A stretch of 64,000 bases of DNA from Rubrivivax sp. (GTDB lineage Bacteria; Pseudomonadota; Gammaproteobacteria; Burkholderiales; Burkholderiaceae_C), in the NCBI GenBank assembly GCA_022842305.1, contig JALHPY010000002.1:80573-144572 (forward strand), in the 5' to 3' direction. The notes beneath the pieces are model-generated. The model worked only from the letters and a program-made list of their open reading frames with translations. It searched no databases and was not told the DNA's origin. This document shows positions 20,608 through 60,722 of the stretch, piece after piece. How positions within the stretch are numbered: the first letter of the stretch is position 1; every line of letters starts with the position of its first letter. The position numbers and the translations under genes were made by a program.

Positions 20608-21675
20608 ATGAGCATCCCCGCCCACCGCTGGCTGATGACCGGCGTGAACCAGCCGCTGCAGCGCGACAGCTTCAGTGCCCAGCCCGGCGCCGGCGAGGTG
20701 GTGGTGGCGGTGGCCGGCTGCGGCGTGTGCCACACCGACCTGGGCTACTACTACGACGGCGTGCGCACCAACCAGCCGCTGCCGCTGGCCCTGGGGCACG
20801 AGGTCAGCGGCCGCGTGGTGGCCTGCGGCGCCGGCGCCGAACACTGGGCCGGCCGCGCCGTCATCGTGCCGGCGGTGCTGCCTTGCGGCACCTGCGACCT
20901 GTGCCAGCGCGGCCTGTCCACCATCTGCCGCGCGCAGAAGATGCCAGGCAACGACATCCAGGGCGGCTTTGCCAGCCACATCGTCGTGCTCGGGCGCGGC
21001 CTGTGCGCCGTGGACGAGCAACGCCTGGCGGCGGCCGGCCTGACGCTGCCGCAGGTGTCGATCGTGGCCGACGCGCTGACCACGCCCTACCAGGCCGTCA
21101 GCCGCGCCGGCGTGACGCCCGGCAGCCTGGCCATCGTGGTGGGCGCCGGCGGCGTGGGCGGCTACTGCGTGCAGGTGGCGCATGCCTTCGGCGCCACGGT
21201 GGTGGCCATCGACGTGGACGACGCCAAGCTGCAGGCCATCGCCGGCCACGGCGCCGCCCTCACCCTGAACAGCCGGCAGATGGACGCCAAGGCGCTGAAG
21301 GCCGCGATCTCGGCCTTCGCCAAGGCCCAGGGGCTGCGCAGCACCGAGTGGTTCATCTTCGAATGCTCGGGCACGGCGCCGGGGCAGCTGGCGGCCTACG
21401 GCCTGCTGGTACACGGCGCCACGCTGTCGGTGGTGGGCTTCACGATGGACAAGGTCGAAGTACGGCTGTCCAACCTGATGGCCTTCGACGCGCGCGCCAT
21501 CGGCAACTGGGGCTGCCCGCCCGAGGCCTATCCCGCCGCGCTGGACCTGGTGCTGGACGGCCGCGTGCAGATCGCCCCCTTCGTGGAAACGCACCCCCTG
21601 GACGACATCAACCGCGTCTTTGCCGCCGTGCACCACCGCGAAATAAAGAAGCGGGCCGTGATGGTCCCCGCCTGA
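20608..21675 (+). CDS. had: 6-hydroxycyclohex-1-ene-1-carbonyl-CoA dehydrogenase
   Basis: Zn-dependent ADH fold, first gene of had-oah-dch-bcr operon. Confidence 0.92.
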
Positions 21676-21703
21676 ACCCCCAAGCCTTGCAGGAGCCCCG
21701 CCC

Positions 21704-22813
21704 ATGAACACCCCCCGTACCTTCAAGAACCACGATCTGGTGGACGACACCAGCAAGCCCGGCGTACGCGTCGAGAAGCGCCCTGCCAGGCGCCCCAACG
21801 GCGAAGTGGTGCCCGGCCTGTACAACACCTGGATCACGCTGGACAACCCCAGCCAGTACAACAGCTACACCACCGACATGGTGAAGGGCGTGATCCTGGC
21901 CATGCGCGCGGCCAGCAATGCGCGCGACGTCAACTGCGTGGTCTTTACCGGCACGGGAGACAAGGCCTTCTGCACCGGCGGCAACACCAAGGAATACGCC
22001 GAGTACTACGCCGGCCACCCGCAGGAATACCGCCAGTACATGCGGCTGTTCAACGACATGGTGTCGGCCATCCTGGCCTGCGACAAGCCGGTGATCTGCC
22101 GCGTCAACGGCATGCGCATCGGCGGCGGGCAGGAGATCGGCATGGCCTGCGACTTCTCGGTATCCAGCGACCTGGCACGCTATGGCCAGGCCGGGCCCAA
22201 GCACGGCTCGGCGCCCATCGGCGGCGCTACAGACTTCTTGCCCGTGATCGTGGGCGCCGAGCGCGCCATGGCCGCCTGCGTGCTGTGCGAACCCTTCAGC
22301 GCGCACAAGGCCTACCAGATGGGCATCCTCACCGACGTGGTGCCGGCGCTCAAGGTCGATGGCAAGTTCGTCGCCAATCCGCTGGTGGAGACGCAGCGCC
22401 AGTACGACGAATTCGGCCGCAACGCCTACGGCGAGGCCAAGACCGGCGCGGCGCTGGATGAAGGCAAGGCGCTGATGAAGCGCGGCACGGTGGACCTGGG
22501 CATGCTGGACGCGCGCGTGGAAGAGCTGTGCGCCAAGATCCTGCTGACCTTCCCCGACTGCACCACCAAGACGCTGGAAGAACTGCGCAAGCCCAAGCTC
22601 GAGGCCTGGAACCGCAACAAGGAAGACTCGCGTTCCTGGCTGGCGCTGAACATGATGACCGAGGCCCGCAGCGGCTTCACCGCCTTCAACGAAGGCCCCA
22701 AGGACGACCGCGAGATCGACTTCGTGCTGCTGCGCCAGAAGCTGGCCGCGGGGCAAAGCTGGGTGGGCAGCCTGCACGACGAGATCCAGCCGGGCGCCAA
22801 GAACCATGGCTGA
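21704..22813 (+). CDS. oah: 6-oxocyclohex-1-ene-1-carbonyl-CoA hydrolase
   Basis: KNHDLVDDTSKPGVRVEKRPARRPNGEVVPGLYNTWITLDNPSQYNSYTTDMVKGVILAMRAASNARDVNCVVFTG. Confidence 0.95.
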   Translation: MNTPRTFKNHDLVDDTSKPGVRVEKRPARRPNGEVVPGLYNTWITLDNPSQYNSYTTDMVKGVILAMRAASNARDVNCVVFTGTGDKAFCTGGNTKEYAEYYAGHPQEYRQYMRLFNDMVSAILACDKPVICRVNGMRIGGGQEIGMACDFSVSSDLARYGQAGPKHGSAPIGGATDFLPVIVGAERAMAACVLCEPFSAHKAYQMGILTDVVPALKVDGKFVANPLVETQRQYDEFGRNAYGEAKTGAALDEGKALMKRGTVDLGMLDARVEELCAKILLTFPDCTTKTLEELRKPKLEAWNRNKEDSRSWLALNMMTEARSGFTAFNEGPKDDREIDFVLLRQKLAAGQSWVGSLHDEIQPGAKNHG

Positions 22814-23627
22814 GGAAGCGAGCACAGTCCCCTCGGGGGACCGGGCGCGGTACTCCGCGACCGAGGGGCCATTGAAAGTCTGGCTGGAGCACGACGGCGC
22901 CCTGCTGCGCCTGCGCCTGGCCCGGCCCAAGGCCAACATCGTGGACGCGCAGATGATCGCCGCGCTGCAGGCGGCGCTGGACGCACACCGCGCCACTCCC
23001 GGCCTGCGCGGCGTGCTGCTGGACGCCGAAGGCCCGCACTTCAGCTTTGGCGCCAGCGTCGAAGAGCATGTGGCCGAGCGCTGTGCCGCCATGCTGGCCA
23101 GCCTGCACGCGTTGGTGCTGACGATGGCTGCGTTTCCGCTGCCCATCCTGGTGGCCGTGCGTGGCCAGTGCCTGGGCGGCGGGCTCGAGGTCGCCCTGGC
23201 CGGCGGCCCAATCTTTGCTCACCCCGAAGCACAGTTCGGCCAGCCCGAGATCAAGCTGGGCGTGTTTGCCCCCGCGGCCAGCTGCCTGCTGCCCTGGCGC
23301 ATCAACCAGAGCAGCGCCGAAGACCTGCTGTGGAGCGGCCGCAGCATCAACGGCACTGCCGCGCTGGCCCTGGGCCTGGTGCAGGCCCTGGCCGACGACC
23401 CCGCGGCCGCGGCACTGGCCTACTTTGACGAGCACCTGCTGCCGCGCAGCGCCGCCGCGCTGGCCCATGCCGTGGCCGCGGTGCGCGCGCCGCGCTTGCG
23501 TGAGCTTGCCCAGCGCCTGGCCGAGGTCGAGCAGCTGTACCTGGACGGACTGATGAAGACCTTCGATGCCAACGAAGGCCTGGCCGCCTTCATGGCCCGC
23601 CGCACGCCCACCTGGCAACACCGATGA
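22806..23627 (+). CDS. dch: Cyclohexa-1,5-diene-1-carbonyl-CoA hydratase
   Basis: Crotonase fold LRLARPKANIVDAQMIAALQAAL...RGQCLGGGLEVALAG; position between oah and bcrC. Confidence 0.92.
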   Translation: MAEEASTVPSGDRARYSATEGPLKVWLEHDGALLRLRLARPKANIVDAQMIAALQAALDAHRATPGLRGVLLDAEGPHFSFGASVEEHVAERCAAMLASLHALVLTMAAFPLPILVAVRGQCLGGGLEVALAGGPIFAHPEAQFGQPEIKLGVFAPAASCLLPWRINQSSAEDLLWSGRSINGTAALALGLVQALADDPAAAALAYFDEHLLPRSAAALAHAVAAVRAPRLRELAQRLAEVEQLYLDGLMKTFDANEGLAAFMARRTPTWQHR

Positions 23628-23641
23628 CAGGAGCCCCGCTC

Positions 23642-24823
23642 ATGAACACCAGCATCCCGAAGGTCACGCAGATCGTGCAGCGTTGCGAGGCGCTGTTCGA
23701 AGACCTGCACTTCAACGCCGTCAAGGACTGGAAGGCGGCAGTGCCCGGCCGCAAGGCCATCGGCTACATGCCGGTGTACGTGCCGCGCGAGCTGATCCAC
23801 GCCGCCGGCATGCTGCCCGTGGGCATCCTGGGCGGCGGCGACGCGCTCGAAGTGATACAGGGCGACGCCTACTACCAGAGCTACATCTGCCGCATCCCGC
23901 GCAGCACCATCGAACTGGGCCTGACCGGGCGGCTGGACTGCCTGGACGGCATGCTGTTTCCCAGCATCTGCGACGTGATCCGCAACCTCAGCGGCATGTG
24001 GCAGATGCTGTTCAAGGACAAGTTCGTGCGCTACATCGACGTGCCGCAGAACTATCAAGATGAGGTTGGCGGACGCTTCTACATGGAAGAGATGCAGATC
24101 CTGCGCGAAGAACTCGCCAAGCTGGGCGGGCGCGAGATCACCGACGACGACATCAACCGCAGCATTGCTGCCTACAACGACAACCGCGCCGCCATCCGCG
24201 ACCTGTACGCCTACCGGGCTGCCAAGCCCTGGCAGGCGCCCACGTCCGAGATCTACCTGGTGCTGCGCGCCGGCATGGTGCTGCCGGTGGAAGAGCACAC
24301 GGCCCTGGTGCGCGAGTACCTGGCCGCGGCCGAACTGCTGCAGCGTGTGAAGCGCGACAACGCCCGCGTGGTGCTCACCGGCGGCTTCTGCGAACAGCCG
24401 CCGCTGGCGCTGATCAAGTCGATAGAGATGTCGGGCTGCTACGTGGTGGACGACGACTTCATGCTCATCACGCGCTGGCTGCTGGACGAAGTGCCGACCG
24501 ACGGCAACCCGCTGCAGGAGCTGTCGCGTGCCTTCCTGCACCGCAGTGCCAGCACAGCGGCCAAGTACGACGCCACGCGCGAGGAAAAAGGCGTGTTCCT
24601 GATGAAGCAGGTCAAGACGCGCGGCGCCGAAGGCGTGATCTTCGCCGCCCCGTCCTTCTGCGACCCGGCGCTGCTGGAGCGGCCCATGCTGCAGGACGTG
24701 CTGACCAAGCACGCCATCCCGCACACCGCCTTCAAGTACGCCGAGAACACCGGCCAGATGGCGCCGATCCGCGAACAGGCGGGCACCTTCGCCGACTCGA
24801 TCAAGCTCTGGAACGCCGCTTAA
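23642..24823 (+). CDS. bcrC: Benzoyl-CoA reductase subunit C
   Basis: BcrC/HgdB-type subunit upstream of bcrB; GDAYYQSYICRIPRSTIELGL. Confidence 0.94.
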   Translation: MNTSIPKVTQIVQRCEALFEDLHFNAVKDWKAAVPGRKAIGYMPVYVPRELIHAAGMLPVGILGGGDALEVIQGDAYYQSYICRIPRSTIELGLTGRLDCLDGMLFPSICDVIRNLSGMWQMLFKDKFVRYIDVPQNYQDEVGGRFYMEEMQILREELAKLGGREITDDDINRSIAAYNDNRAAIRDLYAYRAAKPWQAPTSEIYLVLRAGMVLPVEEHTALVREYLAAAELLQRVKRDNARVVLTGGFCEQPPLALIKSIEMSGCYVVDDDFMLITRWLLDEVPTDGNPLQELSRAFLHRSASTAAKYDATREEKGVFLMKQVKTRGAEGVIFAAPSFCDPALLERPMLQDVLTKHAIPHTAFKYAENTGQMAPIREQAGTFADSIKLWNAA

Positions 24824-24843
24824 AGCCGCAAGAGGACGACGCC

Positions 24844-26256
24844 ATGAACACCCCCATCGCCATGCCCACGCCCACCGGCAGCGCCAAGAAGCCGCCCAAG
24901 GTCGAGAAAGAAGACGCGATGTGGCTCCAGAAGGAGCTCATCAACAAGAACTACAGCGAACTGGCCAACGCCCGCGCCAACAACCAGAAGGTGGCGGCCA
25001 CCTTCGTGCCTGGCAACCTGAATGAGTTGCTGATGTGCTTTGACTTCGCGCGCAGCCTGCCCGAGACCAATGCGCTGCAGAACGGCATGCGCAAGAAGAG
25101 CGGCAAGATGATCATGGACGCCGAACGCGACGGCCAGAGCGAGGACGTCTGCACCTACGTCAAGGCCGACCTGGGCATGATGCTGGGCGGCGAGACCGGC
25201 CCCAACGGCGAGACCCTGCCCAAGCCCGACATCCTGCTGCTCAGCTACACCGGCTGCTTCACCTTCATGAAGTGGTTCGAGCTGATCCGCCACAAGTACG
25301 GCTGCGAAACCGTGATGCTGCACGTGCCCTACCAGGGCGAAGGCCGCATCGCGCCCAACATGCGCGACTACGTCGTGCGGCAGTTGAAGGAGACCGTGAT
25401 CCCGACGCTGGAGCGCGTCTCGGGCGTCAAGTTCGACATCGACCGCCTGCGCCAGTACATGCGCGAATCGGTCAAGGCCGAGGACGATCTGGTCAAGGTG
25501 CTGCAGTCGGCCAAGAACCGGCCCAGCCCCATCGACGGCTACTTCGGCGCCGTGTACTACATCGGCCCCATCTTCACCGCCTTCCGCGGCACGCCCGAGG
25601 CCACCGAGTACTACCGCGTGCTGCGCGCCGAGATCGAGGAGCGCGTGCGCCTGGGCCTGGGCCCGGTGACACCCGAGGGCGCGATGGGCGAAGAGAAGTA
25701 CCGCCTGGTGGTCGAGGGCCCGCCCAACTGGACCAGCTTCCGCGAGTTCTGGAAGATGTTCTACGACGAGGGCGCGGTGGTGGTCTCGTCCACCTACGCC
25801 AAGGTCGGCGGGCTGTACGACTTCGGCTTCCGCCACGACCCGGATCACCCGCTGGAATCGCTGGCCGACTACTGCCTGGGCTGCTACACCAACCTGAACC
25901 TGCCCTCGCGCGTGGACATGATCTGCAAGTACATCGACGAGTACCAGGCCGACGGCCTGCTGATCAACAGCATCAAGAGCTGCAACAGCTTCTCGGCCGG
26001 CCAGCTGCTGATGATGCGCGAGGTCGAGCGCCGCACCGGCAAGCCCGCGGCCTTCATCGAGACCGATCTGGTGGACCCGCGCTACTTCTCGGCGGCCAAC
26101 GTCAAGAACCGGCTCGAGAGCTACTTCCAGATGGTCAAGGCCAAGCGCGTGGCGGGCGTCACCGGGCTGGGCTCGGCCGGCATGTCCTTGCCTTCCGGGC
26201 TGGAAGGCCCGGGCGGACCCGGCGGCCCGATCATCCCCATCCACGCGGCCCACTGA
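24844..26256 (+). CDS. bcrB: Benzoyl-CoA reductase subunit B
   Basis: [59 protein letters not shown]. Confidence 0.95.
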
Positions 26257-26272
26257 GAGCGAGGGCGACCAC

Positions 26273-27613
26273 ATGCGCTGCTTCATCGGCATCGACCTGG
26301 GCTCCACCACCACCAAGGCGGTGGTGGTGGACGAGAACCAGAACATCCTCGGGCGTGGCATCACCAATTCGCGCTCCAACTACGACACGGCCGCGGCCAT
26401 CGCCAAGCAGGAGGCGCTGGTCAACAGCCGCTTCCACCTGTTCCGGCAGAAGCTGGGCAGTGAAGGCGCGCTCAACGGCGCGCTGGACGGCTTCATCGCG
26501 CAGCTGGAACGCGACTTCCGCTCCGAGCAATACCTGGAACAGCTGGCCGACCTGCACAAGACCTGCGAACGCAGCCTGGCCACGTCGCGCTTCGGCGAAG
26601 GCGCGGCCGCGGTGGGCCCGGCGCTGGAAGAGGTGTTCCGCCGCCTCACGGCAGAAGCGCCCTTGCTGTTTGCGCCCGGCGCCAAGCGCAAGAGCGACTT
26701 CTTCCGCGACATCGCCGGCAGCCAGTACCTGGCCACCGGCGAGGTGGTGGCCAAGGAGGCCGGCACCAAGTACGAGTACCTGCTCAACCTGTTCGACCGC
26801 AGCATCATCGAGGTCGAGAACCGCGTCTACGCCGACAGCATCCGGCGGCATTTGCTGGCGGCGCTGGAGCGCACCTTCATCGCCCTGCCCGAGACCACGG
26901 CGCGGCGCGCGCAGGTCGAAGCGCCCATCAAGGGCATCCTCGACACCGATCTGGAAGAGACCTACGTCGTGGGCACCGGCTACGGCCGCGCGCGCCTGCC
27001 CTTCAGCAAGGAGCACATCCGCAGCGAGATCCTGTGCCACGGCCTGGGCGCGCACGTCATGTACCCGGGCACGGCCACGGTGCTGGACATCGGCGGCCAG
27101 GACACCAAGGCCATCCAGATCGACCCGGCGGGCATCGTCGAGAGCTTCCAGATGAACGACCGCTGCGCCGCCGGCTGCGGCCGCTACCTGGGCTACATCG
27201 CCGATGAGATGAACATGGGTCTGCACGAGCTGGGCCCGCTGGCGATGAAGTCGACCAAGAGCATCCGCATCAACAGCACCTGCACGGTGTTCGCCGGCGC
27301 CGAGCTGCGCGACCGCCTGAGCCTGGGCGACAAGCGCGAGGACATCATGGCCGGCCTGCACCGCGCCATCATGCTGCGCGCCATGTCGATCCTGGCGCGT
27401 TCGGGCGGCGTGCGCGACCAGTTCACCTTCACCGGCGGCGTGGCCAAGAACGAGGCCGCGGTCAAGTCGCTGAAAGAGCTGATCAAGGACAACTACGGCG
27501 AGGTCACGCTCAACATCGACCCCGATTCCATCTACACCGGCGCCCTGGGCGGTGCCACCTTTGCCTGGCGGGCCGTGGTCGAGGAAGGCCGCTCCGCTGA
27601 AGCAAGGGTCTGA
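26273..27613 (+). CDS. bcrA: Benzoyl-CoA reductase ATPase subunit A
   Basis: [60 protein letters not shown]. Confidence 0.95.
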
Positions 27614-27626
27614 GGGAGCCAGCAGC

Positions 27627-28472
27627 ATGATCCACACCATCGGCATCGACATCGGCTCGGGCGCGGTCAAGTCCGTGCTCTTCCGCCACGGCGCAGACGG
27701 CGCAAAACCCACCTGGGTGGCGCGGCGCTGCGAACGCATCCGCAGCCGCGACCCCATGACCCTGGCGCGCCAGGGCTTTGATGACGTGCTGGCCGACGCC
27801 GGCCTGGCCGAAGGCGACGTGGCCTACACGGCCACCACCGGTGAGGGCGAGAACGTCAAGTTCGCCACCGGGCACTTCTATTCGATGACCACGCACGCCC
27901 GCGGCGGCGTGTTCCTGGAGCCGACGGCGCGCGCGGTGGTCGACATCGGCGCGCTCAACGGCCGCGCCATCTACATCGACGAGCGCGGCAAGGTGCTGTC
28001 GTACAAGATGACCAGCCAGTGCGCCTCGGGCTCGGGCCAGTTCCTGGAAAACATCGCGCGCTACCTGGGCGTGGCGGTCGAGGAGATCGGCCCGCTGTCG
28101 CAGAGCAGCCTGGACCCCGAGAAGGTCAGTTCCATCTGCGCCGTGCTGGCCGAGACCGACGTCATCAACATGGTGTCGCGCGGCATCGCCACGCCCGACA
28201 TCCTCAAGGGCATCCACCTGTCGATGGCCTCGCGCATCGTCAAGCTGCTCAAGGTGACGGGCATCAAGAGCGGCACCGCGCTGCTGACCGGCGGCCTGGC
28301 GCTGGACAGCGGGCTGCTGGCCGCCATCCAGGAAGAGATGGTCAACGAGAAGGTCACGGTCAGCGCCATGTCGCACCCCGATTCCATCTACGCCGGGGCC
28401 GTGGGCGCGGCGCTGTGGGGCGCCTTCCGCCACCGCAAGCTGCAGGAGCTGGAAGCCACGGCTGCGGCATGA
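27627..28472 (+). CDS. bcrD: Benzoyl-CoA reductase ATPase subunit D
   Basis: MIHTIGIDIGSGAVKSVLFR; MTSQCASGSGQFLENIARYLG. Confidence 0.95.
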   Translation: MIHTIGIDIGSGAVKSVLFRHGADGAKPTWVARRCERIRSRDPMTLARQGFDDVLADAGLAEGDVAYTATTGEGENVKFATGHFYSMTTHARGGVFLEPTARAVVDIGALNGRAIYIDERGKVLSYKMTSQCASGSGQFLENIARYLGVAVEEIGPLSQSSLDPEKVSSICAVLAETDVINMVSRGIATPDILKGIHLSMASRIVKLLKVTGIKSGTALLTGGLALDSGLLAAIQEEMVNEKVTVSAMSHPDSIYAGAVGAALWGAFRHRKLQELEATAAA

Positions 28473-44772: not shown

Positions 44773-45326
44773 GACGCGTCCTCGGCCACCACCGGCGTGG
44801 CCGGCGGGCTGCCACCCAGCGCCTGGCGCGCGTGCTCGGTGGCGCGGTACAGGCCGGCCAGGGCCAGCAGCACGAAGCCCGGCACCATCAGCGCCTGCCC
44901 CACCCAGACCGGGGCACCCAGGATCATGGTGGTCTCGCCCACGGCCTGCAGCGAAGCCGCGCCCACCCCCGTGCGCCAGGCGATGAGCGCGCCGAAGCCG
45001 GCCACCAGCAGCGAGCCCACGGCGTCCAGCGCGTGCACGCGCCGCGCCGGCAGCCAGTCGGTGAAGAAATCGACCTTCACGTCGCCGTGGCTCAGGTGGC
45101 ACCAGGCGAAGAACGAGGCCGAGGCAAAGGCCGCGCACAGCTGCAGCATCTCCACGTCGCCCGGCACCGGCATGGACAGCAGCTTGCGCCCGGTGATGGA
45201 GACGATGGACATGAGCACCAGCGCCACAAACACCAGCGTGCCGGCGATGGCCGAGCACTTGCAGGCCAGTTCCAGGCCGCGGCCGTAGCGGCCCGTGGCC
45301 CGTGAGGGACCCAGCAGCTTCATCAT
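44769..45326 (-). CDS. TRAP transporter small permease (DctQ family)
   Basis: Four-TM protein: ALVLMSIVSITGRKLLSMPVPGDVEMLQLCAAFASASFFAWCHLSHGDVKVDFFTDWLP. Confidence 0.88.
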   Translation of the reverse strand: MMKLLGPSRATGRYGRGLELACKCSAIAGTLVFVALVLMSIVSITGRKLLSMPVPGDVEMLQLCAAFASASFFAWCHLSHGDVKVDFFTDWLPARRVHALDAVGSLLVAGFGALIAWRTGVGAASLQAVGETTMILGAPVWVGQALMVPGFVLLALAGLYRATEHARQALGGSPPATPVVAEDAS

Positions 45327-46507
45327 CCGCCGGCCTCGAGCGCCTGCGCGCCGATGATGAGCTTGAGCACCTCGCTGGCGCCTTCGTAGATGCGCAGCGC
45401 GCGGATCTCGCGGTACAGCCGCTCCACCGGCACGCCCTGCACCACGCCCAGGCCGCCCCACAGCTGCACCGCGGCGTCTATCACCTGCTGTGCCGATTCG
45501 GTGGCAAAGAGCTTGGCCATCGAGGCCTCGCGCGTGACGCGGCGGCGCTGCACGTCCTTGGTCCAGGCCGCGCGGTAGACCATCAGCGCCGAGGCGTCGA
45601 TGGCCAGGGCCATCTCGCCCAGCTTCATATGCGTGAGCTGGAACTCGGCCAGCGTCCGCCCGAACAGCCTGCGGCTGCGCGCGCGCAGCAGGGCTTCGTC
45701 CAGCGCGCGCCGCGCAAAGCCCAGCGCGGCCGCGCCCACCGTGGTGCGGAAGGTGTCGAGCGTGCCCATGGCGATCTTGAAGCCCTGCCCCTCCTCGCCC
45801 AGCAGGGCGTCATCGGGCACGCAGCAGGCCGTCAGGCGCAGCGTGCCCAGCGGGTGCGGGGCGATGACCGGGATGCGTTCGCTGGCGTCCAGCCCCGGCG
45901 TGCTGGCCGGCACGATGAAGGCCGAGATGCCGCGCGTGCCGGCCTGTCCGCTGCGCGCGAAGACCACGTAGCTGTCGGCCAGGCCGGCGTTGCTGATCCA
46001 GGTCTTCACGCCGTCCAGCTGCCAGCCGCCGGGCACGCGCGTGGCACGGCAGGCCAGCGCGGCCACGTCGGAGCCGGCGTCGGGTTCGGACAGCGCAAAG
46101 GCCGCCACCGTGCGCCCTTCGGCCACGCCCGGAAGCAGCGCCAGCTTTTGTGCGTGCGTGCCGAACAGGCTGACCGGCGCGCTGCCGAGGCCCTGCATGG
46201 CCAGCGCAAAGTCGGCCAGGCCCGAGGCCCGCGCCAGAGTTTCGCGCGCCAGGCTCAGGCCACGCACGTCCAGCTGCTCGCGCAAGCCGCCGTAGGCCGC
46301 CGGCACGCACACGCGCAGCAGCCCGGCGCGGCCCAGCTCGGTCACCAGCCGGCGCACGCAGGCGTAGACGGCGTCCAGGCTGTCCTCGGCGCCCTCCAGC
46401 AGCGGCGGCAGTTGCTGCTGTGCCCACTGCCGCACCTGCGCCGCATAGACACGGTGGCCCTCGTCGAAGAAGGGCCAGTCCAGGTCGCTGGCGGGCGTGG
46501 CGGCCAT
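45323..46507 (-). CDS. Acyl-CoA dehydrogenase
   Basis: [40 protein letters not shown]-terminal [14 protein letters not shown]. Confidence 0.9.
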
Positions 46508-47325
46508 CAGTTGCCTTCGAACACCGGCTTGGACTTGGCGGCAAAGGCGTGGTAGGCGCGCTCGAAGTCCTGGGTCTGCATGCAGATGGCCTGGGCCTGG
46601 GCCTCGGCCTCGATGCATTCGCCCAGGCCGGAGCTCCACTCCTGCCAGAGCATGGTCTTGGTCATGGCGTGGCCGAAGGTCGGGCCCTCGGCCAGGCTTT
46701 GCGCCAGGGCTTGCGCTTCTTCCAGCAGCTTGTCGGGTTCGACCAGGCGGTTGTGGAAGCCGTAGCGTTCGGCCTCTTCACCGCCGACCACGCGGCCGGT
46801 GAACAGCAGATCGGCGGCGCGCGACAGCCCGATGAGCCGCGGCAGCAGCGTGCAGGCGCCCATGTCGGCGCCGGCCAGGCCCACGCGCACGAACAGGAAG
46901 GCCAGCTTGCTGCGCGCCGTGGCCAGGCGCATGTCCGAGCCGCAGGCGATCATCGCGCCGGCACCGGTGCACACGCCGTCGATGGCGGCGATGATGGGTT
47001 GCGGGCAGGCGCGCATGGCCTTGACCAGATCGCCCGTCATGCGCGTGAAGGCCAGCAGCTCGGGCATGTCCATACCCACCAGCGGGCCGATGATCTCGTG
47101 CACGTCGCCGCCGCTGCAGAAGTTGCCGCCCTCGCCGGTGAAGACGATGGCCTTGATGTCGCTGGCGTAGACCATCTCGCGGAACAGGTCGCGCAGCTCG
47201 CCATACGAATCGAAGGTGAGCGGGTTCTTGCGGTCGGGCCGGTTCAGCCGGATGGTGGCCACCTTGCCCTGGGCCGAGTAGCCGAAGTGCCGGGCCTGGT
47301 AGGCGGCGAGCTGTAGGTTCTTCAT
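46507..47325 (-). CDS. Enoyl-CoA hydratase/isomerase family protein
   Basis: [31 protein letters not shown]...[13 protein letters not shown]...[20 protein letters not shown]. Confidence 0.9.
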
Positions 47326-47441
47326 GGTCATCTCCTGTTGTTGTAATCGATGGCACATCCGCCCCGCCCCCGCGGCAACCCGCGGCCGGGCAGGGGCACA
47401 TCCTGGAACTCACCGCTCCAGCACCCAGGGGCCATGGGCGG

Positions 47442-47939
47442 TCAGGCCCGCGCCGGGCGTTCGGGGTCTTCGCGCAGGAACACGGCCGGTGGGACGGTGC
47501 GCGCCATCCAGTCTTCCAGCGCCTGCACATGCTCGGTTTCCTCGGCCGCAAACTCGGCAGCCATGCGCCGCACCTCGGCGTCGGCGGTCTGCTCGCTCAC
47601 GCTGCAGTAGTAGTCCAGCGCGCGCATCTCGTTCTTGAGCGCGTAAGTCAACGCTTGGTAGGCGTCGAGCATGACGTCGAAGCCTTCTTCATCGCCGGCC
47701 TCGGGCGCCTGCAGCCAGCGGTACTGCCCCGGGCGCAGCGTGGGCAGCGTCACGCCGCGGGCGCGCTCGATGATGGAGTCACGGTGCATGCGCGAGTAGC
47801 GCACCATGTCGCGGAACAGCGCCGACACCGGGTCGTTGCGGTGCGCTTCCATCCTGTCGGCCAGTTCCAGATAGCGTTCGGCCGCCTCGTGCTCCAGCGC
47901 GATGGCGTGGGCCAGGAATTCCGGCAGCGTGTAGTCCAT
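47442..47939 (-). CDS. Ferritin-like diiron protein
   Basis: ALEHEAAERYLELADRM...YSRMHRDSII...LKNEMRALDYYCSV...FAAEETEHVQAL. Confidence 0.78.
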   Translation of the reverse strand: MDYTLPEFLAHAIALEHEAAERYLELADRMEAHRNDPVSALFRDMVRYSRMHRDSIIERARGVTLPTLRPGQYRWLQAPEAGDEEGFDVMLDAYQALTYALKNEMRALDYYCSVSEQTADAEVRRMAAEFAAEETEHVQALEDWMARTVPPAVFLREDPERPARA

Positions 47940-47961: not shown

Positions 47962-48717
47962 TCAGCCCGCCATCGTGAGGCCGCCGCTGACGCTGAGCAC
48001 CTGCCCTGTTATGTAGGCCGCGCGGTCGCTTGCGAAAAAAACCACGGCATCGGCCACTTCCTCGGGCTTGCCCAGACGGCGGAAGGGGATGGCCTTGGTC
48101 AGCGCGTCCTTCACCTTGTCGGGCACGGCGGCCATCAGCGGCGTGTCGGTGGGGCCAGGGCAGACGCAGTTGACGTTGATGTTGTAGCGCGCCACCTCGC
48201 GCGCCAGCGACTTGGTGAAGGCGATCAGCCCGCCCTTGGCGCCCGAGTACACCGTCTCGCCCAGGCTGCCCACCCGCCCGGCGTCGCTGGCGATGTTGAC
48301 GATGCGGCCGCTGGCGCGCTCCATCATGCCCGGCAGCAGGGCCTTGGCCAGCTGCATGGGGCCGACGAAGTTGAGCGCCACCAGCTTGGCCCAGAACTCG
48401 TTGCTGCCCTCGATGAAGGGCGCCGTGCGGCCCCAGCCTGCCGCGTTGACCAGCACATCCACGGCGCCGCAACGCGCCTGCGCGGCGGCGGCAAAGGCCT
48501 CGATGGACAGCGGGTCGGTCATGTCCACGTGCAGGTAGTCGGCCTGCAGGCCATCCGCCCGCAGCGCGGCGGCGGTGGCCTCGCCGCCTTGGGCGTCGAT
48601 GTCGGCCACGACCACCCGCGCCCCGGCGCGCGCCAGCGCGGCGGCGGTGGCGCGGCCGATGCCGGAGGCGGCGCCGGTGACGATGGCGGTCTTGTGCGCA
48701 AATTCCATGGGTCGGCC
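47962..48717 (-). CDS. Short-chain dehydrogenase/reductase, BadH-like
   Basis: KTAIVTGAASGIGRATAAALARAGARVVVADID; VNIASDAGRVGSLGETVYSGAKGGLIAFTKSLAREVARYNINVNCVCPGPTDTPLM...GQVLSVSGGLTMAG. Confidence 0.85.
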   Translation of the reverse strand, partial: GRPMEFAHKTAIVTGAASGIGRATAAALARAGARVVVADIDAQGGEATAAALRADGLQADYLHVDMTDPLSIEAFAAAAQARCGAVDVLVNAAGWGRTAPFIEGSNEFWAKLVALNFVGPMQLAKALLPGMMERASGRIVNIASDAGRVGSLGETVYSGAKGGLIAFTKSLAREVARYNINVNCVCPGPTDTPLMAAVPDKVKDALTKAIPFRRLGKPEEVADAVVFFASDRAAYITGQVLSVSGGLTMAG

Positions 48718-48742
48718 TTTCGAGTGAGGCAAGGGATGGGTG

Positions 48743-49513
48743 TCAGCGGGTGCGCCGGGCCAGGAAGTTCGACACCTTGCGCCGCGACTCGGGGTGTTCG
48801 TACAGCGCCCGGGTCTCGATCAGCTCTTCGGCGTAGCCGTCGCGCTGCGCGTCCTGCGCGGCGGCGATGCAGCGCTTGTTGGCCGCCAGCGCCGCGCGCG
48901 GGCTGGCGGCGCAGGCGGCGGCCAGGTCGCGCGTGAAGCCCAACAGCTCTGCACGCGGCCGCGCCCATTGCACCAGCCCCAGGCGTTCGGCCTGCGCGCC
49001 GTCCACCACCTCGGCGCCCAGGATCAGGCGCTTGGCCACGCCGACGCCGCACAGCCGCGTCAGGCGCTGCGTGCCGCCGGCCCCGGGCACAAGGCCCAGG
49101 CTGGCCTCGGGAAGGCCCAGCCGGGCCTCGCTGGCGGCCACGCGCAGGTCGCAGGCCAGAGCAAGCTCGAGCCCGCCGCCCAGCGCGGCGCCGCCGATCT
49201 CGGCCAATGTCACGACCGGCGCTGTCTCCAGCCGCATGAACAGCCGCTGCATGCGCCGCACCACCTCGGTCATCTCGGCCGGGCCTTCGGGCGTGGCAAA
49301 GCAGTCGCGCATCAGCGCCAGGTCGGCACCGGCGCAGAAGGCGCGCTGCTCGCTGCGCAGGTGCAGCAGCGTGAGACTTTCGTCGTCGCAGGCCGTGTCC
49401 AGCGCCGCGTCCAGCGCGCCGATGAGCTGATCGTCCAGCGCGTTGACCGGCGCGCGCGCCAGCGTGGCCACCAGCACGCGGCCTTGTCGTTCGGTGTGCA
49501 GCACGGCAGTCAT
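48743..49513 (-). CDS. Enoyl-CoA hydratase/isomerase family protein
   Basis: SEQRAFCAGADLALMRDC...EIGGAALGGGLELALACDLRVAASEARLGLPEASLGLVPGAGGTQRL. Confidence 0.9.
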   Translation of the reverse strand: MTAVLHTERQGRVLVATLARAPVNALDDQLIGALDAALDTACDDESLTLLHLRSEQRAFCAGADLALMRDCFATPEGPAEMTEVVRRMQRLFMRLETAPVVTLAEIGGAALGGGLELALACDLRVAASEARLGLPEASLGLVPGAGGTQRLTRLCGVGVAKRLILGAEVVDGAQAERLGLVQWARPRAELLGFTRDLAAACAASPRAALAANKRCIAAAQDAQRDGYAEELIETRALYEHPESRRKVSNFLARRTR

Positions 49514-49516
49514 GAC

Positions 49517-51676
49517 CTAGAGCGTGCCGTGCAGCTCTTGCAGCTTGCGCCGCAGCAGCTTGCCGGTGGGGCCGCGCGGCAGCGCGTCCACGGCATGCCA
49601 CCAGCGCGGGCGCTGATGCGGTGGCAGGGTTGCGGCGCGGGCCCGCAAGAGGTCGGCAACGACCGCGGCCGCGTCGCCGGCGCAGTAGAAAAAGGCCACC
49701 GCGTCCACGCCGTCTTCGTCGGGCACCAGCACCGCTGCGCCCTCGCGGATGCCCGGAGTCTGGGCCGACAGGCACTCTTCCAGCTCGACCAGGTTGACCC
49801 AGCGGCCGTGGATCTTGACCAGCGAGTCTTCGCGCCCGGCAAAGCGCCAACCGCCGTTGTCGTCGCGCGCAAACAGATCGGCCGGGCAGAAGGCGTCGTC
49901 GCGGAAGGCCTCGGCCTGGGCCTGCGGCCGGTCCAGGTAGCCCAGCGCCACGGTGCCCACGCGGATGCGCAGGCGCGAGGGCTGGCCGGGCAACACCTCG
50001 CCCAGCGGCTGGATCTCCACGCCGGGCGAGGGCCTGAAGCCCCGGCCGTCGCCGCGGTCCAGCATCACCAGCACCAGCACCTCGGACGCGCCATAGCCGT
50101 TGACGATGGCCAGGCCGGTCTGGCGCTGCCATTCGTCGCGCAGGCTGGGCGGCAGCGCCTCGCCGGCCGACAGGCACAGGCGCACGCCAGCCGCGGCGAT
50201 GCCCGGCGCCAGGCCTTCGTGCAGCAGGTTGCGGTAGAGCGAGGGCACGCTCAGCAGCACGGTCGGCCGTTGCGCCGCCACCGTGGCGGCCACGCTGGCG
50301 GCGGTGGGCCATTGCGGGTCGAGGATGACCGTGGCGCCCAGCTTCAGCCCGGCCCACAGGCTGTTGGTCTGCGGGTACGAGAAGAACAGGCGCGAACTGG
50401 CAAACAGCCGGTCGCCCCCGTGGATGCCCACGCCGTCGCGCGAGACCTGTTCGATGCTGCGCGCGAAGCGGTGCGCGTGCACCACCGCCTTGGGTTTGCC
50501 CGAGGTGCCCGATGAATGGCACCAGAAGGCCGGCGTGTCCGCGCTCACCGGGCAGGCCGGAAGCGGCTGCGCCGCCGCCTGGCCCTGGTGGAAGCTGTCA
50601 AGACCCAGCGTGCGCTCGCGCCAGGGTGCGGGCGTGTCGTCGGCGCTCTCGGCCAGGATCAGGCTGAAGCCGGCTTCGTCCAGGATGTAGTGCCATTCGG
50701 GCGCGGGCACGCGTGGGTTCACGGGCACGGCCACGGCACCGGCCCACATGGCGCCCAGGAAGGCGGTGACCCAGGCTATGCCGTCGGGCAGCTTGATGGC
50801 GATGCGGTCGCCAGGGCGCAGGCCCAGGCTGCGCCAATAGCCGGCTGTGCGCGCCACGGTGTCGCGCAGTTGGCCGTAGCTGAGCGTGGCTTCGCCGCAC
50901 ACCAGCGCGGTGCGCGCCGCGTCCTGCCCGGTGACCAGTAGCCGTGCCGCGTTGTCGGCGCCGCTGGCCGTGGCCTGGGCGTGAGCCTGGGCCTGCGCGT
51001 TCGAATGCAGGGGCAGCGGCCGGCCCATCAGGTCGGTGCTGAACACCCCCGCCCGGCCGCTGCGCCAGCGCGCTTGCTCGGTGGCCAGCATCAGGGCGTG
51101 CTCGCGTTCCTCGGCCGCCAGTTCGGCGTAGAGCTGGCGTTCGGCCGTGCCCTGCCCCGGGCGCGCCGCGCACTCGGCAAAGTAGGCGGCGGCGCGGTTC
51201 TCCAGGCCGATGGCGATGCGGAACAGGTTGTCGGGGTCCTGCGGGCGGTGCTCGACATCGGCAAAGACGGCCGCCACCTCCAGCCGGAAACCGGGCGAAG
51301 CTTCGGGCACGTCCACGTGGTAGCGCCGCGACAGCGTCTCCATGTGCTCGCCCTCCATCAGGGCAAAGCGGCCGAAGAGCTGCTGCAGATCGGCATCACG
51401 GCACTCGGCCGCGGCGCGCTGGTAGAAGGCGCGCCCGCCCAGTTCGATCTCGAAGGCCGCGCGCAGCCCGCCCAGCGCCGAGGCCGGCTCGGGGCGGCTG
51501 CCGTCTACCACCGCCAGCGCGCCGCTGCAGTGCGGGCAGCGGCCGTAGGGGAAGGCAAAGCCTTCGCTGACCTTGGCGCATTGGGCGCAGCGCCAGCGCA
51601 GGCTGGCATCGGCGCAGCAGATGTAGACGCCTTCGGACGCGTCTTCCAGCGGGCGCTGGCACTTGGGGCAGCGCAT
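49517..51676 (-). CDS. Zinc ribbon - rubrerythrin-like - acyl-CoA (hydroxybenzoate-type) ligase fusion
   Basis: MRCPKCQRPL...CC...CAQC...CPHC; then FEIELGGRAFYQRAAAE..EGEHMETL..GLENRAAAYFAE..AAEEREHALML; then WCHSSGTSGKPKAVVHAHRFARSIEQVSRDGVGIHGGDRLFASSRLFFSYPQTNSLW...LPRGPTGKLLRRKLQEL in one frame. Confidence 0.88.
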   Translation of the reverse strand: MRCPKCQRPLEDASEGVYICCADASLRWRCAQCAKVSEGFAFPYGRCPHCSGALAVVDGSRPEPASALGGLRAAFEIELGGRAFYQRAAAECRDADLQQLFGRFALMEGEHMETLSRRYHVDVPEASPGFRLEVAAVFADVEHRPQDPDNLFRIAIGLENRAAAYFAECAARPGQGTAERQLYAELAAEEREHALMLATEQARWRSGRAGVFSTDLMGRPLPLHSNAQAQAHAQATASGADNAARLLVTGQDAARTALVCGEATLSYGQLRDTVARTAGYWRSLGLRPGDRIAIKLPDGIAWVTAFLGAMWAGAVAVPVNPRVPAPEWHYILDEAGFSLILAESADDTPAPWRERTLGLDSFHQGQAAAQPLPACPVSADTPAFWCHSSGTSGKPKAVVHAHRFARSIEQVSRDGVGIHGGDRLFASSRLFFSYPQTNSLWAGLKLGATVILDPQWPTAASVAATVAAQRPTVLLSVPSLYRNLLHEGLAPGIAAAGVRLCLSAGEALPPSLRDEWQRQTGLAIVNGYGASEVLVLVMLDRGDGRGFRPSPGVEIQPLGEVLPGQPSRLRIRVGTVALGYLDRPQAQAEAFRDDAFCPADLFARDDNGGWRFAGREDSLVKIHGRWVNLVELEECLSAQTPGIREGAAVLVPDEDGVDAVAFFYCAGDAAAVVADLLRARAATLPPHQRPRWWHAVDALPRGPTGKLLRRKLQELHGTL

Positions 51677-51686: not shown

Positions 51687-52685
51687 TCAGGCCGTGACGG
51701 CATGGCCGGCACGTTCGGCCAGCTCTGCCACCAGGCGCTGCACCTGCACGGCCGCCACCAACCGGCGGTAGTGCGACTGCATGACCGTGGTGCGCATGGG
51801 GCTGACCTGCTTGTGCACCAGCTTGCCCAGAGCAGCGACTGCTGCCTCGTCCAGCGGGCTTCCGACAAAGGCCTCGGTGCCCTGCAGCAGCAGCGGGTGC
51901 GAATTGGTGCCGGTGAGCGCGATGCGCAGGCTGGCCAGCTCGCCGCCCTGGACGCGCAGTGCGCAGGCGGCGCCGGCCAGCGCAAAGTCCATCGAGCCGC
52001 GCGCGCGCGCCTTGCGGTAGCCGCTCAGCAGGCCGGCGGCCGGCGCCGGCAGCACGATGCGGGTGAGCACCTCGTCGCTCGCCAGCGTCAGGTGCGCGGC
52101 GCCGTCGTCGCGGTAGCAGTCGGCCAGCGGCAGGCGGCGCGTGCCGCGGGCCGAGAGCAGGTCGACGCTGGCGTCCAGCGCGATGAGTGCCGGCGCCACG
52201 TCGCCACTGAAGGCGGCGTGACAGCGGCTGCCCTGCGGCGCCACGTGGCAGGTCTGGCCGCCGCGCTTGAGGCAGTAGTCGTTGGCCTGGCGCCACCATT
52301 CGCTCTGGTTGTAGTAGACGCAACGCGTGTCCTGGCACAGGTTGCCGGCCAGCGTGGCCACCGTGCGGTGCCCCGGGCCGGCCGCGGCGCGCGCGCCCTC
52401 GGCCAGCGCCACGGCAGCGCCTTGCAGGCGCGGCTCTACAGCCAGGCGCGCCAGGGTGATGCCGGCGCCCAGGGTCCAGTGCTGCTCGCCGCACACCAGG
52501 CCAGCCTGGCCCTGCACGGCGCCCAGGTCGACCAGGCGCGAGGGCTTGCCCAGGCCGCGGCGCAGGTTGGGTACCAGGTCGGTACCGCCGGCCAGCAGGC
52601 GCGCGCCGGGCTCGGCGGCCAGCAGCGTGGCGGCCTCGGCATAGCTGGCCGGACGCGACAGTTCGAACTCGGGCATGCGTTCCAT
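51687..52685 (-). CDS. hcrB: 4-hydroxybenzoyl-CoA reductase FAD subunit
   Basis: ARLLAGGTDLVPNLRRGLGKPSRLVDLGAV and the Cys-rich insert LCQDTRCVYYNQSEWWRQANDYCLKRGGQTCHVAPQGSRCHAAFSGD. Confidence 0.9.
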   Translation of the reverse strand: MERMPEFELSRPASYAEAATLLAAEPGARLLAGGTDLVPNLRRGLGKPSRLVDLGAVQGQAGLVCGEQHWTLGAGITLARLAVEPRLQGAAVALAEGARAAAGPGHRTVATLAGNLCQDTRCVYYNQSEWWRQANDYCLKRGGQTCHVAPQGSRCHAAFSGDVAPALIALDASVDLLSARGTRRLPLADCYRDDGAAHLTLASDEVLTRIVLPAPAAGLLSGYRKARARGSMDFALAGAACALRVQGGELASLRIALTGTNSHPLLLQGTEAFVGSPLDEAAVAALGKLVHKQVSPMRTTVMQSHYRRLVAAVQVQRLVAELAERAGHAVTA

Positions 52686-52686: not shown

Positions 52687-55101
52687 TCACTCCCCTTGCG
52701 CGGGTGCGCTGGCGGCCTGGGCTTGGGTCAGTGCGCGGCGCGCCTGCAGTTGCTGCTGTCGGCGCTGCTTGTGCAGCGCGTCAAGCACGCGGTCGGGCGT
52801 GGCCGGCAGCTCGTGCAGACGAATGCCCACGGCGTCGAAGATGGCGTTGGTCAGCGCCGGCGGAAAGCCGTGCAGCGCGCCTTCGCTGGCCTCCTTCGCG
52901 CCGAAGGGCCCCAGCGGGTCCATGCTCTCCACCAGGTGCACGGCGATGGGCGGCGACTCGACGATGGTGGGGATGCGGTAGTCCAGAAAGTTGGGGCGCA
53001 GCGGCAGGCCTTCGTGGTACTGCGTCTCTTCGCCCAACGCCTGGCCCATGCCCATCCACACGGCACCCTGCACCTGGCCCTCTACCGCCAGCGGGTTGAT
53101 GGCAAAGCCGCAGTCGTGCGCCACCCACACCTGTTCGACCTGCACCAGGCCGGTGTCCACGTCCACCGCCACCTGCACCACCTGCGCGGCGTAGGAAAAG
53201 CCGGCGGTCGAGCCCACCGCGGCGCCGCGGAACTTGCCGCCCTGCGTTTCGGGCGGGGTGGACCACACGCCCTTGACGGTGATGGTGCCGCTGTCCACCA
53301 GCGCGGCCTCCACCACCTGGGCAAAGTTCAGCGTCTTGTCGGTGCCCACCACGGCGCAGCATTCGCCGGCCCAGTCCACCTCTTCGGGGCTGACCTGCAG
53401 CACGCGTGCCGCCGCCGTGACCAGCAGGCGCTTCAGTTCCTCGGCCGCGCGCAGCGCCGCGTTGCCCACCATGAAGGACACGCGCGATGAGTACGAGCCG
53501 TTGTCCTTGGGCGTGAGCGCGCTGTCGGTGGCGATGACGCGGATGCGCGCCATCGGCAACTGCAGCACCTCGGCCACCACCTGCGTCAGCAGCGTGGACG
53601 AGCCCTGGCCGATGTCGGACGCGCCCGTGAGGATGGTGATGCCGCCGTCGAAGTCGAGCTTGAGGTTGATCACCGCGTGCGGCTCGCCGCTCCAGTGCAC
53701 CGGCTTGGCCGAGCCCGAGACGTAGTGCGAGCAGGCCAGCCCCAGGCCGCGCTTCACCGGGCCGTCGGCCGGCAGGTGGCCGCGCCACTGGCGCCAGCCC
53801 GAGGCCTGCTCCACCCAGTCCAGGCAGGCCGGCAGGCCATAGGAATTGACCTGCAGATCGTTGAGCGTGCGGTAGGGCGCGTCAATCAAATTGGCGCGGC
53901 GCAGCGCGATCGGGTCGATGCCCAACTGCCCCGCCATCTCGTCCAGCAGCGACTCGAAGGCATGGCGCACGTCCACCGCGCCGTGGCCGCGCATGGCGCC
54001 GCAGGGCGGCAGGTTGGCGTAGACGCGAAAGCCGCGGTAGCGCACCGCACCCACGCGGTACAGCGCGTGCAGCAGCGCACCGGCGTAGAGGATGGTGACC
54101 AGGCCGTAGCCCCCGTAGGCCCCGCCGCGCTGCACCACTTCGCAGTCCACCGCGGTGATCTCGCCGCTGCGCTTGAGGCCGATCTTGAGCCGGATGTCGG
54201 TGGCCGGACGGCCGCGGTGCGTGAGGAAACCTTCCTCGCGCGTGAGCTGCATGCGCACCGTGCCACCGGCGGCACGCGCCAGCGCGGCCGTGACCATCTC
54301 GAAGTTGAGCGGTTCCACGCGGTGGCCGAAACCGCCGCCGACAAAGGGCTTGACCACGCGGATGCGCGAACTGTCCATGCCCAGCACCTGCGCCAGCGTC
54401 AGGTGCAGGTAGTACGGCACCTGGGTCACCGAATGCGTGGTCAGGCGGCCGGCCTCGGGCTCGTAGCAGGCCACGGCGGCGTTGAGCTCGATCTGGCCGT
54501 GGGCGACTTCGGCATAGGTGGTGCTGCGCTCCAACACCAGGTCGGCCTGCGCAAAGCCGGCATCCAAGTCGCCGAAATCCTGCTCGACCTGGCGCTCGAT
54601 GTTGCCGGGCTTCTTGGGGTGCAGCGGCACGGCGCCCTCGGCGCGCGCCTCGGCAGCAGTGAAATAGGCCGGCAGGGTCTCGATGTCCAGCGTGATGGCG
54701 CGCAGCGCGGCCTCGGCCGTGGCTTCGTCCACCGCCGCCACGGCGGCCAGCGGCTCGCCGCGGTAGCGCACCACGTCGCGCGCCAGCGGCCATTCGTTCT
54801 GGGCGATGGGGATCACGCCATAAGGCGCGGCGAAGTCGGCGCCGGTGATGACGGCGCGCACGCCGGGGATGGCCAGCGCGGCTTCGACGTCGATGGCGTG
54901 GATGCGGCCGTGCGCCACCGGGCTGCGCAGTATGCGGCCCACCAGCGCCTGGCCGAAAGGCAGGTCGGCGGTGTAGCGCGCGCGGCCGGTGACCTTGTCG
55001 ATGCCGTCGACCAGCGGCGTGCGCTGGCCCACGCCGCCGGCGGGGGCGGTGGCGCTGACCTTGGTCGTGGCGGGCAGGCCGGCGGGGTCGCGCGCGTTCA
55101 T
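52687..55101 (-). CDS. hcrA: 4-hydroxybenzoyl-CoA reductase molybdenum subunit
   Basis: Xanthine oxidase family: TPLVDGIDKVTGRARYTADLPFGQALVGRILRSPVAHGRI; VKPFVGGGFGHRVEPLNFE. Confidence 0.9.
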   Translation of the reverse strand: MNARDPAGLPATTKVSATAPAGGVGQRTPLVDGIDKVTGRARYTADLPFGQALVGRILRSPVAHGRIHAIDVEAALAIPGVRAVITGADFAAPYGVIPIAQNEWPLARDVVRYRGEPLAAVAAVDEATAEAALRAITLDIETLPAYFTAAEARAEGAVPLHPKKPGNIERQVEQDFGDLDAGFAQADLVLERSTTYAEVAHGQIELNAAVACYEPEAGRLTTHSVTQVPYYLHLTLAQVLGMDSSRIRVVKPFVGGGFGHRVEPLNFEMVTAALARAAGGTVRMQLTREEGFLTHRGRPATDIRLKIGLKRSGEITAVDCEVVQRGGAYGGYGLVTILYAGALLHALYRVGAVRYRGFRVYANLPPCGAMRGHGAVDVRHAFESLLDEMAGQLGIDPIALRRANLIDAPYRTLNDLQVNSYGLPACLDWVEQASGWRQWRGHLPADGPVKRGLGLACSHYVSGSAKPVHWSGEPHAVINLKLDFDGGITILTGASDIGQGSSTLLTQVVAEVLQLPMARIRVIATDSALTPKDNGSYSSRVSFMVGNAALRAAEELKRLLVTAAARVLQVSPEEVDWAGECCAVVGTDKTLNFAQVVEAALVDSGTITVKGVWSTPPETQGGKFRGAAVGSTAGFSYAAQVVQVAVDVDTGLVQVEQVWVAHDCGFAINPLAVEGQVQGAVWMGMGQALGEETQYHEGLPLRPNFLDYRIPTIVESPPIAVHLVESMDPLGPFGAKEASEGALHGFPPALTNAIFDAVGIRLHELPATPDRVLDALHKQRRQQQLQARRALTQAQAASAPAQGE

Positions 55102-55568
55102 GCCGCGGCTCCGGTGGCGGCCTGCACCGATTCGATGATCTTCACGTAGCCGGTGCAGCGGCACAGGTTGCCGGCCAGGGCCTCGCGGATCTGCGCCGCG
55201 CTGGGGTCGGGGCAGCGCCGCAGCAGCGCTTCGGCCGCCATCACCATGCCGGGGGTGCAGAAGCCGCACTGCGTGCCCAGCTTCTCGTGGAAGGCCTGCT
55301 GCAGCCGGCTCATGCGGCCATTGGCCGACAGGTGCTCGATGGTCTCGATGCGTTTGCCCGTGCAGCCTGCCGCCAGCGTGATGCAGGCCAGCAGCGGCTG
55401 GTCGTCCATCAGCACGGTGCAGGCGCCGCACTCGCCGCCGTCGCAGCCTTGCTTGGTGCCGGTCAGGCCCAGGGTGTCGCGCAGCACGTCCAGCAGCAGC
55501 GCGTTGTCGGCCACGGCCAGCTGATGCGTGCGCCCGTTGACATGGAGGGTCAGCAACTTCTTGCTCAC
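55098..55568 (-). CDS. hcrC: 4-hydroxybenzoyl-CoA reductase [2Fe-2S] subunit (GTG start 55568; ATG at 55610 also possible)
   Basis: LTGTKQGCDGGECGACTVLMDDQPLLACITLA...KLGTQCGFCTPGMVM...NLCRCTGYVKI. Confidence 0.92.
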   Translation of the reverse strand: MSKKLLTLHVNGRTHQLAVADNALLLDVLRDTLGLTGTKQGCDGGECGACTVLMDDQPLLACITLAAGCTGKRIETIEHLSANGRMSRLQQAFHEKLGTQCGFCTPGMVMAAEALLRRCPDPSAAQIREALAGNLCRCTGYVKIIESVQAATGAAA

Positions 55569-55653
55569 GGCCGGGGACTCCTGGTCTGCAATGGGCTGAA
55601 CTGCACGCACGGGCGCCGGGCGGCGCCAGACCGCGCCGCGGTCTCTATTGGTG

Positions 55654-55671: not shown

Positions 55672-55810
55672 CCGGATTAGACAAGAATGCGTTGGACATA
55701 TGCTTTGTGGTTTACCCAGCCGTGGCCAGCAGTCGCCACCCGGGCAGGAGGAAGACCTTGAGGTGTGATGTACACGGGGCCGACTTGGCCTCCCCGCGGT
55801 GGAGCGCAGC

Positions 55811-57195: not shown

Positions 57196-57200
57196 GGCGC

Positions 57201-60609: not shown

Positions 60610-60671
60610 GGCCGGCCCGGGTGCGGCACGCTCCGGGCATGCTCTGGGTGCGCAATCTAGCGGCCGTCCTT

Positions 60672-60699
60672 GCATTCGTCCAATTGATGAGCAGAATGC
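60672..60699. promoter_or_regulatory. Inverted repeat GCATTC-N16-GAATGC, candidate LysR operator
   Basis: Perfect 6-bp arms in the padE/LysR divergent intergenic region. Confidence 0.5.
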
Positions 60700-60722
60700 G
60701 GCCCATTGACCAAGCGCATGCG

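Follow-up and report, generated by a model that had tools for sequence, protein, structure and literature searches.

Why should an aryl-CoA ligase carry, at the front of the same polypeptide, a cysteine-rich region and a rubrerythrin-like diiron domain? The question is raised by one gene in the 64,000-nucleotide stretch of DNA analysed here (the window). The gene occupies 49517..51676 on the minus strand, with its ATG at 51676 and its stop at 49517-49519, and encodes 719 aa without an internal stop. An earlier note on this DNA, which did not give the strand, had claimed an uninterrupted frame of about 719 aa with three modules in one chain, marked by cysteine-pair, diiron, SSGTSGKPK and TGKLLRRK motifs. 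Frame and motifs were all found where it had placed them, and the three modules are borne out by the sequence and by the architecture of homologues. From N to C terminus, the order is an eight-Cys region and a ferritin-like four-helix domain (together called ZnFer below), a linker and an AMP-forming aryl-CoA ligase. The linker (aa 212-241; 50954..51043, minus strand) is variable in the alignment and of low confidence, with pLDDT below 50 at residues 213-238; in the AlphaFold model of the full-length protein these residues are disordered, the N-terminus is of low confidence and no confident interdomain contact is seen. The ATG lies 10 bp past the end of hcrB, and an enoyl-CoA hydratase gene follows 3 bp past the stop. 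A TTG-initiated extension of the frame to 51985 was considered as the start and rejected, as it merely overlaps hcrB and the homologues begin at the equivalent of M1.

The 719-aa fusion is a real protein and not an artefact. A scan of named contigs yielded 80 loci with the ZnFer module, comprising 37 ZnFer-ligase fusions and 43 non-fusions. A frameshift or assembly error, the objection that the earlier note itself had raised, is ruled out by 37 other named contigs that share the continuous architecture, 35 of them with closed frames of 701-760 aa; the ligase of these other fusions is 59-78% identical to that of the window. Nor is the fusion an oddity of a single genome, since a survey of 301 family genomes turned it up at full length in 10, that of the window counted, at 59-70% identity. 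The fusions are nearly all from Burkholderiales (Ramlibacter, Rubrivivax, Rhodoferax, Piscinibacter, Ideonella, Aquabacterium and MAGs), and within the sampled family the fusion has been kept in at least eight genera, at 55-78% identity and similar length; a class-level search returned no further fusion. One copy, on a MAG contig labelled Anaerolineales (L055), is nearly identical to the Aquabacterium copy, and its label probably reflects mis-binning. No description of the architecture was found in the open literature searched (most subscription journals lay outside its scope), while none of the curated NCBIfam models seen in the profile scans covers the fusion. The parts are each of a known kind; for the way they are combined, the conservation of this arrangement and its derivation from an Nfn companion, no account was found in that literature.

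The N-terminal region (aa 1-57; 51506..51676, minus strand) holds eight cysteines, arranged as C3xxC6 (CPKC), C20C21 (CC), C30xxC33 and C47xxC50, the last four forming a rubredoxin-like CxxC-x13-CxxC. Where the earlier note saw a double zinc ribbon, the second half appears to resemble the rubredoxin domain of rubrerythrin as strongly as it does a zinc ribbon: RUBY_RBDX matched 28 of 64 relatives and the double zinc ribbon 30 of 64, every match being weak, and the weak profile match of the region to the rubredoxin end of rubrerythrin (1ryt/1b71; 0.03) is a hint at most. C30, C33, C47 and C50 are present in 80 of 80 relatives, and the first four cysteines are missing from just one of the 80, L099. 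The gene at this locus (9956-12112), the nearest relative by its ligase, has a frame that starts past the first four cysteines and keeps the rubredoxin-like second half.

The ferritin-like four-helix domain (aa 66-211; 51044..51481, minus strand) was delimited by AlphaFold helices, Foldseek and a profile match to 2FZF (E 9.5e-10). AlphaFold run on alignment A3 (pLDDT 80.7) placed helices at 66-91, 95-119, 148-171 and 177-205 and a small beta element at 26-57, with residues 1-20 poorly predicted. Foldseek with the model of this domain gave weak E-values (best 5e-3, probability 1.00), and its top rows were all ferritin-like (2FZF, 2OH3, thioferritin, Dps and bacterioferritin). Pfam Rubrerythrin (PF02915) matched aa 71-198 at E 7.5e-4 in the whole protein, under threshold; the excised domain narrowly passes (23.3 bits, threshold 22.8), and all 64 aligned relatives match the model (E up to 0.1; best 2.2e-11). 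The full six-residue set of diiron ligands, E78, E108xxH111, E159 and E190xxH193, is invariant in 80 of 80 ZnFer relatives, with E190 taken as the helix D ligand for this count, and 13 of the 14 putative metal ligands fall within the 37 invariant columns of 213 (alignment A3; hypergeometric P ~2e-10). Rubrerythrin has a further glutamate in helix C, three residues on from the first one, which we take to be E97 of D. vulgaris; its expected position, placed by motif spacing and not by structural superposition, is held here by A162, invariant in A3, so that the diiron site would be a six-ligand, bacterioferritin-like one. Conserved ligands of this kind are compatible alike with a peroxidase, an iron-binding or a structural role and do not distinguish among them, and diiron catalysis by ZnFer is a suggestion drawn from its residues.

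Of the rubrerythrin-like domain that had been claimed, the ferritin-like fold and the six ligands therefore hold, while the extra glutamate of rubrerythrin is absent; moreover, the module is that found at the C-terminus of PRK12775. This NCBIfam model (NF009413), for a trifunctional NfnS-NfnL-ferritin protein, matches aa 2-211 at 3e-84 (283.5 bits, below the whole-protein cut-off of 1895) over profile positions 798-1005, the last 208 of 1006, which marks ZnFer as a known recurrent module, normally a partner of NfnSL, rather than a free rubrerythrin. An NfnS-NfnL-ZnFer protein of Anaeromyxobacter (L083) is itself PRK12775 above cut-off (2100 versus 1895 bits). Where a non-fusion locus has 2.5 kb or more of upstream sequence, ZnFer always lies directly behind NfnSL or is fused to its end (37 of 37). 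The window's own genome has such a locus on contig C25, where NfnSL (802 aa; L143 10136-12541) and ZnFer (211 aa) are followed by a pyruvate:ferredoxin oxidoreductase (TIGR02176, 1715 bits). NfnSL is named here by homology; the alternative that related loci have GltD alone at this upstream place was rejected, the full gene being a fused NfnS-NfnL. By these matches and neighbourhoods, ZnFer is an established companion of a predicted ferredoxin/NAD(P)H flavoprotein, often adjoining ferredoxin-dependent enzymes, which are known as oxygen-sensitive. Of 28 fusions, 16 have NfnSL directly upstream, at no more than 40 bp, and 19 have hcr genes in the locus; the window's fusion has NfnSL neither in its chain nor in its neighbourhood.

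The remainder of the protein (aa 242-719; 49520..50953, minus strand) is an AMP-forming aryl-CoA ligase domain by Pfam (AMP-binding, PF00501, aa 253-581, E 2.8e-58), by NCBIfam HbdA and by Foldseek matches to benzoate-CoA ligases (~1e-40). It carries the P-loop SSGTSGKPK (388-396) and PTGKLLRRK with K706, and has the marks of the ANL superfamily (P-loop, A5 Glu, A7 Asp, A8 Arg/hinge, A10 Lys and fold); the catalytic residues K396, E532, D600, R615 and K706 are invariant among relatives. The best curated ligase model, HbdA (3-hydroxybenzoate-CoA ligase, NF053567), scored 308.7 bits, far below its cut-off of 1000, and the benzoate-CoA ligase model TIGR02262 scored 247.9 bits, below its cut-off of 375. 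When the fused ligases were placed in one tree together with 30 stand-alone ones, a branch 0.57 long with support 1.0 set them apart, and identity was 55.5% at the minimum within the fused set and 46.5% at the maximum to an outsider, tree and identities excluding three ZnFer-less relatives found later. The pocket differs from that of benzoate ligases in having H387 for Y, P435 for G and A530 for S, with V535/L536 at the positions of BadA H333/I334, and an assignment of substrate from the pocket gave no result, as no characterised ligase among those compared shares it. Because of this pocket, and because a true benzoate-CoA ligase has its own gene elsewhere in the window (37536-39119; TIGR02262, 777 bits), the fusion is probably not a benzoate enzyme; the hcr context makes a hydroxybenzoate its likely substrate.

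That context was examined across the window. The fusion gene lies directly downstream of hcrCAB, as had been observed earlier, and the three genes encode the gamma (hcrC, 55098..55610; TIGR03193, 257.0 bits against a cut-off of 257.8), alpha (hcrA, 52687..55110, start uncertain; TIGR03194 above cut-off) and beta (hcrB, 51687..52685; TIGR03195 above cut-off) subunits of 4-hydroxybenzoyl-CoA reductase, all on the minus strand. On the same strand, the genes behind it encode an enoyl-CoA hydratase/isomerase (48743..49513; profile matches and synteny), a BadH-like SDR dehydrogenase (47962..48732; a profile match below cut-off, and synteny), a separate COG1633 ferritin-like protein (47442..47939; 2oh3 E 2.3e-49 and synteny), an enoyl-CoA hydratase (46507..47358; PRK08258 above cut-off) and an acyl-CoA dehydrogenase (45323..46579; profile matches). 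The COG1633 gene belongs to the same operon as the fusion and is conserved there in many relatives. The O2-sensitive, anaerobic pathway that had been supposed around the fusion is present in the window as a complete ATP-dependent benzoyl-CoA reductase cluster, had-oah-dch-bcrCBAD (20608..28469, plus strand; NCBIfam equivalogs above cut-off). Beside this cluster lies korBA, for a 2-oxoacid:ferredoxin oxidoreductase, with a rubrerythrin-family ferritin-like gene (17240-17752) directly behind it (together 17240-20513, minus strand), and a hemerythrin HHE-domain gene (40243-40746, minus strand) is found in the same aromatic island. Upstream of hcrCAB, 56281-61092 (minus strand) carries genes for a further 2-oxoacid:acceptor oxidoreductase (alpha, beta and gamma) and for a PRK12771-like GltD-type flavoprotein. 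Two Rrf2-family regulators with 68% mutual identity stand at opposite ends of the island (55799-56269, plus strand, and 2449-2907, minus strand). Counting the fusion, three genes of the island are ferritin-like and one encodes a hemerythrin, in keeping with a need to deal with oxygen.

Related loci show four arrangements around hcrCAB: hcrCAB-NfnSL-ZnFer with no attached ligase (L059, L060 and L159); hcrCAB-NfnSL-[ZnFer-ligase] (e.g., L034, L037, L039, L050, from the culturable Ramlibacter lithotrophicus RBP-1, and L054); hcrCAB-[ZnFer-ligase] with no NfnSL between (the window, L043, L045, L049, L082, L099 and L160-L162); and hcrCAB-[ligase] with no ZnFer (L153, L154 and L155, from genomes G144, G091 and G283). 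In L060 (7649-14181), hcrCAB-NfnSL-ZnFer is followed by a 1175-aa protein that by eye is indolepyruvate ferredoxin oxidoreductase-like. An earlier generalisation, that the ligase clade has no relative without ZnFer (the unfused matches at order level were all at or below 46%), was given up when the wider family search found the three of the fourth arrangement. Genome G095, of the same genus, was set aside as an unfused case, as the two halves end at two contig ends and allow no judgement. The ZnFer-less ligase of L153 (9150-11174) begins MPCPPCHPP, which resembles a leftover of the first CxxC. In the tree it falls, with modest support, beside that of L155 within the fused clade; hence the module was probably lost in both. 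L154 stands at the base (98.4/96), and its state may be ancestral or a loss. On the ZnFer tree the fusion label needs four changes, at least three of them forced by well-supported branches, and the sequences leave room both for one origin with losses and for several origins. ZnFer and the ligase were probably once neighbours, and the direction in which the series is read is in part our inference.

For the role of the fusion, we give a little better than an even chance to its being an aryl-CoA ligase of the anaerobic hydroxybenzoate branch with a rubrerythrin-like guard of its own, taken from an Nfn partner. ZnFer would at first have been a separate partner of NfnSL in the hcrCAB operon, and would later have been joined to the ligase behind it. 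The ligase would use ATP and CoA to turn a benzoate, probably a hydroxylated one, into an aroyl-CoA; HcrCAB with ferredoxin would reduce this product and lead it into the O2-sensitive benzoyl-CoA reductase route; and the putative diiron site would reduce H2O2 or O2 near the pathway enzymes, with electrons arriving via the N-terminal metal-Cys region from Nfn or from another NAD(P)H/ferredoxin reductase. As three relatives in the same position do without ZnFer, the module would be accessory and the protection not essential. In favour of this reading are the PRK12775 homology of ZnFer and its pairing with NfnSL, also in the window's own genome, the conserved diiron ligands and cysteines, the ferritin-like fold, the intact catalytic residues of the ligase, the complete bcr cluster and, as an intermediate stage, the loci with hcrCAB-NfnSL-ZnFer unfused. 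Against a guard count the absence of the rubrerythrin-specific extra glutamate and of the first CxxC in L099, the nearest relative by ligase, and against the proposed electron supply the absence of NfnSL, at E<=1e-100, from 5 of 11 fusion genomes (incomplete MAGs).

That ZnFer is constantly paired with NfnSL, whether as a separate protein or in one chain, could also be read as docking, a possible but doubtful alternative: ZnFer would hold the ligase near NfnSL, HcrCAB and ferredoxin, bringing aroyl-CoA and low-potential electrons together, and its metal sites would be mainly structural. The flexible linker and the preservation of NfnSL-ZnFer adjacency by the fusion in many loci agree with this, but in many other loci the fusion is retained with NfnSL not adjacent and, as the strongest fact against a mere scaffold, strictly conserved diiron ligands exceed what it needs. 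An unlikely extension of the guard would have a built-in, Nfn-fed diiron peroxide/O2 reductase both protect and redox-control the entry of hydroxybenzoate into the benzoyl-CoA pathway; were it so, the pathway would start only when the ferredoxin/NAD(P)H state permits. Quite unlikely is the gating by O2 or peroxide that the earlier note had suggested, in which an oxidised diiron or Cys site alters the ligase and blocks hydroxybenzoate entry. The covalent joining and a ligase that feeds an O2-sensitive pathway speak for it, but the module also stands beside enzymes that are not ligases, the modelled linker is long and disordered with no confident interdomain contact, and above all the natural relatives lacking ZnFer disfavour an obligatory gate; we found no support for sensing or gating. 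We rate slightly lower still a fusion without benefit, in which a lost stop codon joined two neighbouring genes and the domains act as before: the probable former adjacency and the apparent loss of the module in L153, with its relic, and in L155 are as expected from it, but its retention across genera at similar length is not. Hydroxylation or epoxidation of the ligase-made aroyl-CoA by the diiron domain, in the fashion of BoxB, which like PaaA is a ferritin-like diiron enzyme with CoA thioester substrates, is very improbable, since the operon is anaerobic and the module also serves as a partner of NfnSL and of pyruvate:ferredoxin oxidoreductase in settings without an aromatic substrate.

The guard reading, if right, offers a possible answer to how facultative anaerobes could run an oxygen-sensitive ring-reducing pathway near air. 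Whatever its role, the fusion ties a widespread diiron module of unknown function, the third part of PRK12775, to a single, defined step in the anaerobic breakdown of aromatics, and this link makes the function of ZnFer testable by a simple assay. It also makes visible every stage of a domain exchange along one operon, from separate and fused parts to loss of the partner and loss of the module.

Compared with known systems, the closest counterparts of the first 211 residues are the C-terminal ferritin part of PRK12775/NF009413 and the ZnFer of the split NfnSL + ZnFer pairs, which are homologous to them, the PRK12775 part having the same eight cysteines and the same diiron ligands; unlike in PRK12775, the module here stands in front of an aryl-CoA ligase, with no Nfn part in the chain or nearby. 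Rubrerythrin and reverse rubrerythrin (1RYT, 1B71) likewise combine a diiron ferritin-like domain with a CxxC..CxxC element, which in the fusion may be rubredoxin-like, whereas the fusion has its Cys region at the N-terminus, four extra cysteines, no extra helix-C carboxylate and a larger enzyme attached. The COG1633 proteins (2OH3, 2FZF) are the closest solved folds to ZnFer by sequence and structure, but they have no Cys region and are unfused. HbdA and the benzoate-CoA ligases (TIGR02262; 2V7B, 4EAT) have the ANL fold and motifs in common with the fusion, which nevertheless falls far under both model cut-offs, forms a clade of its own on the well-supported stem described above and has a different pocket, and whose ZnFer part neither model covers.
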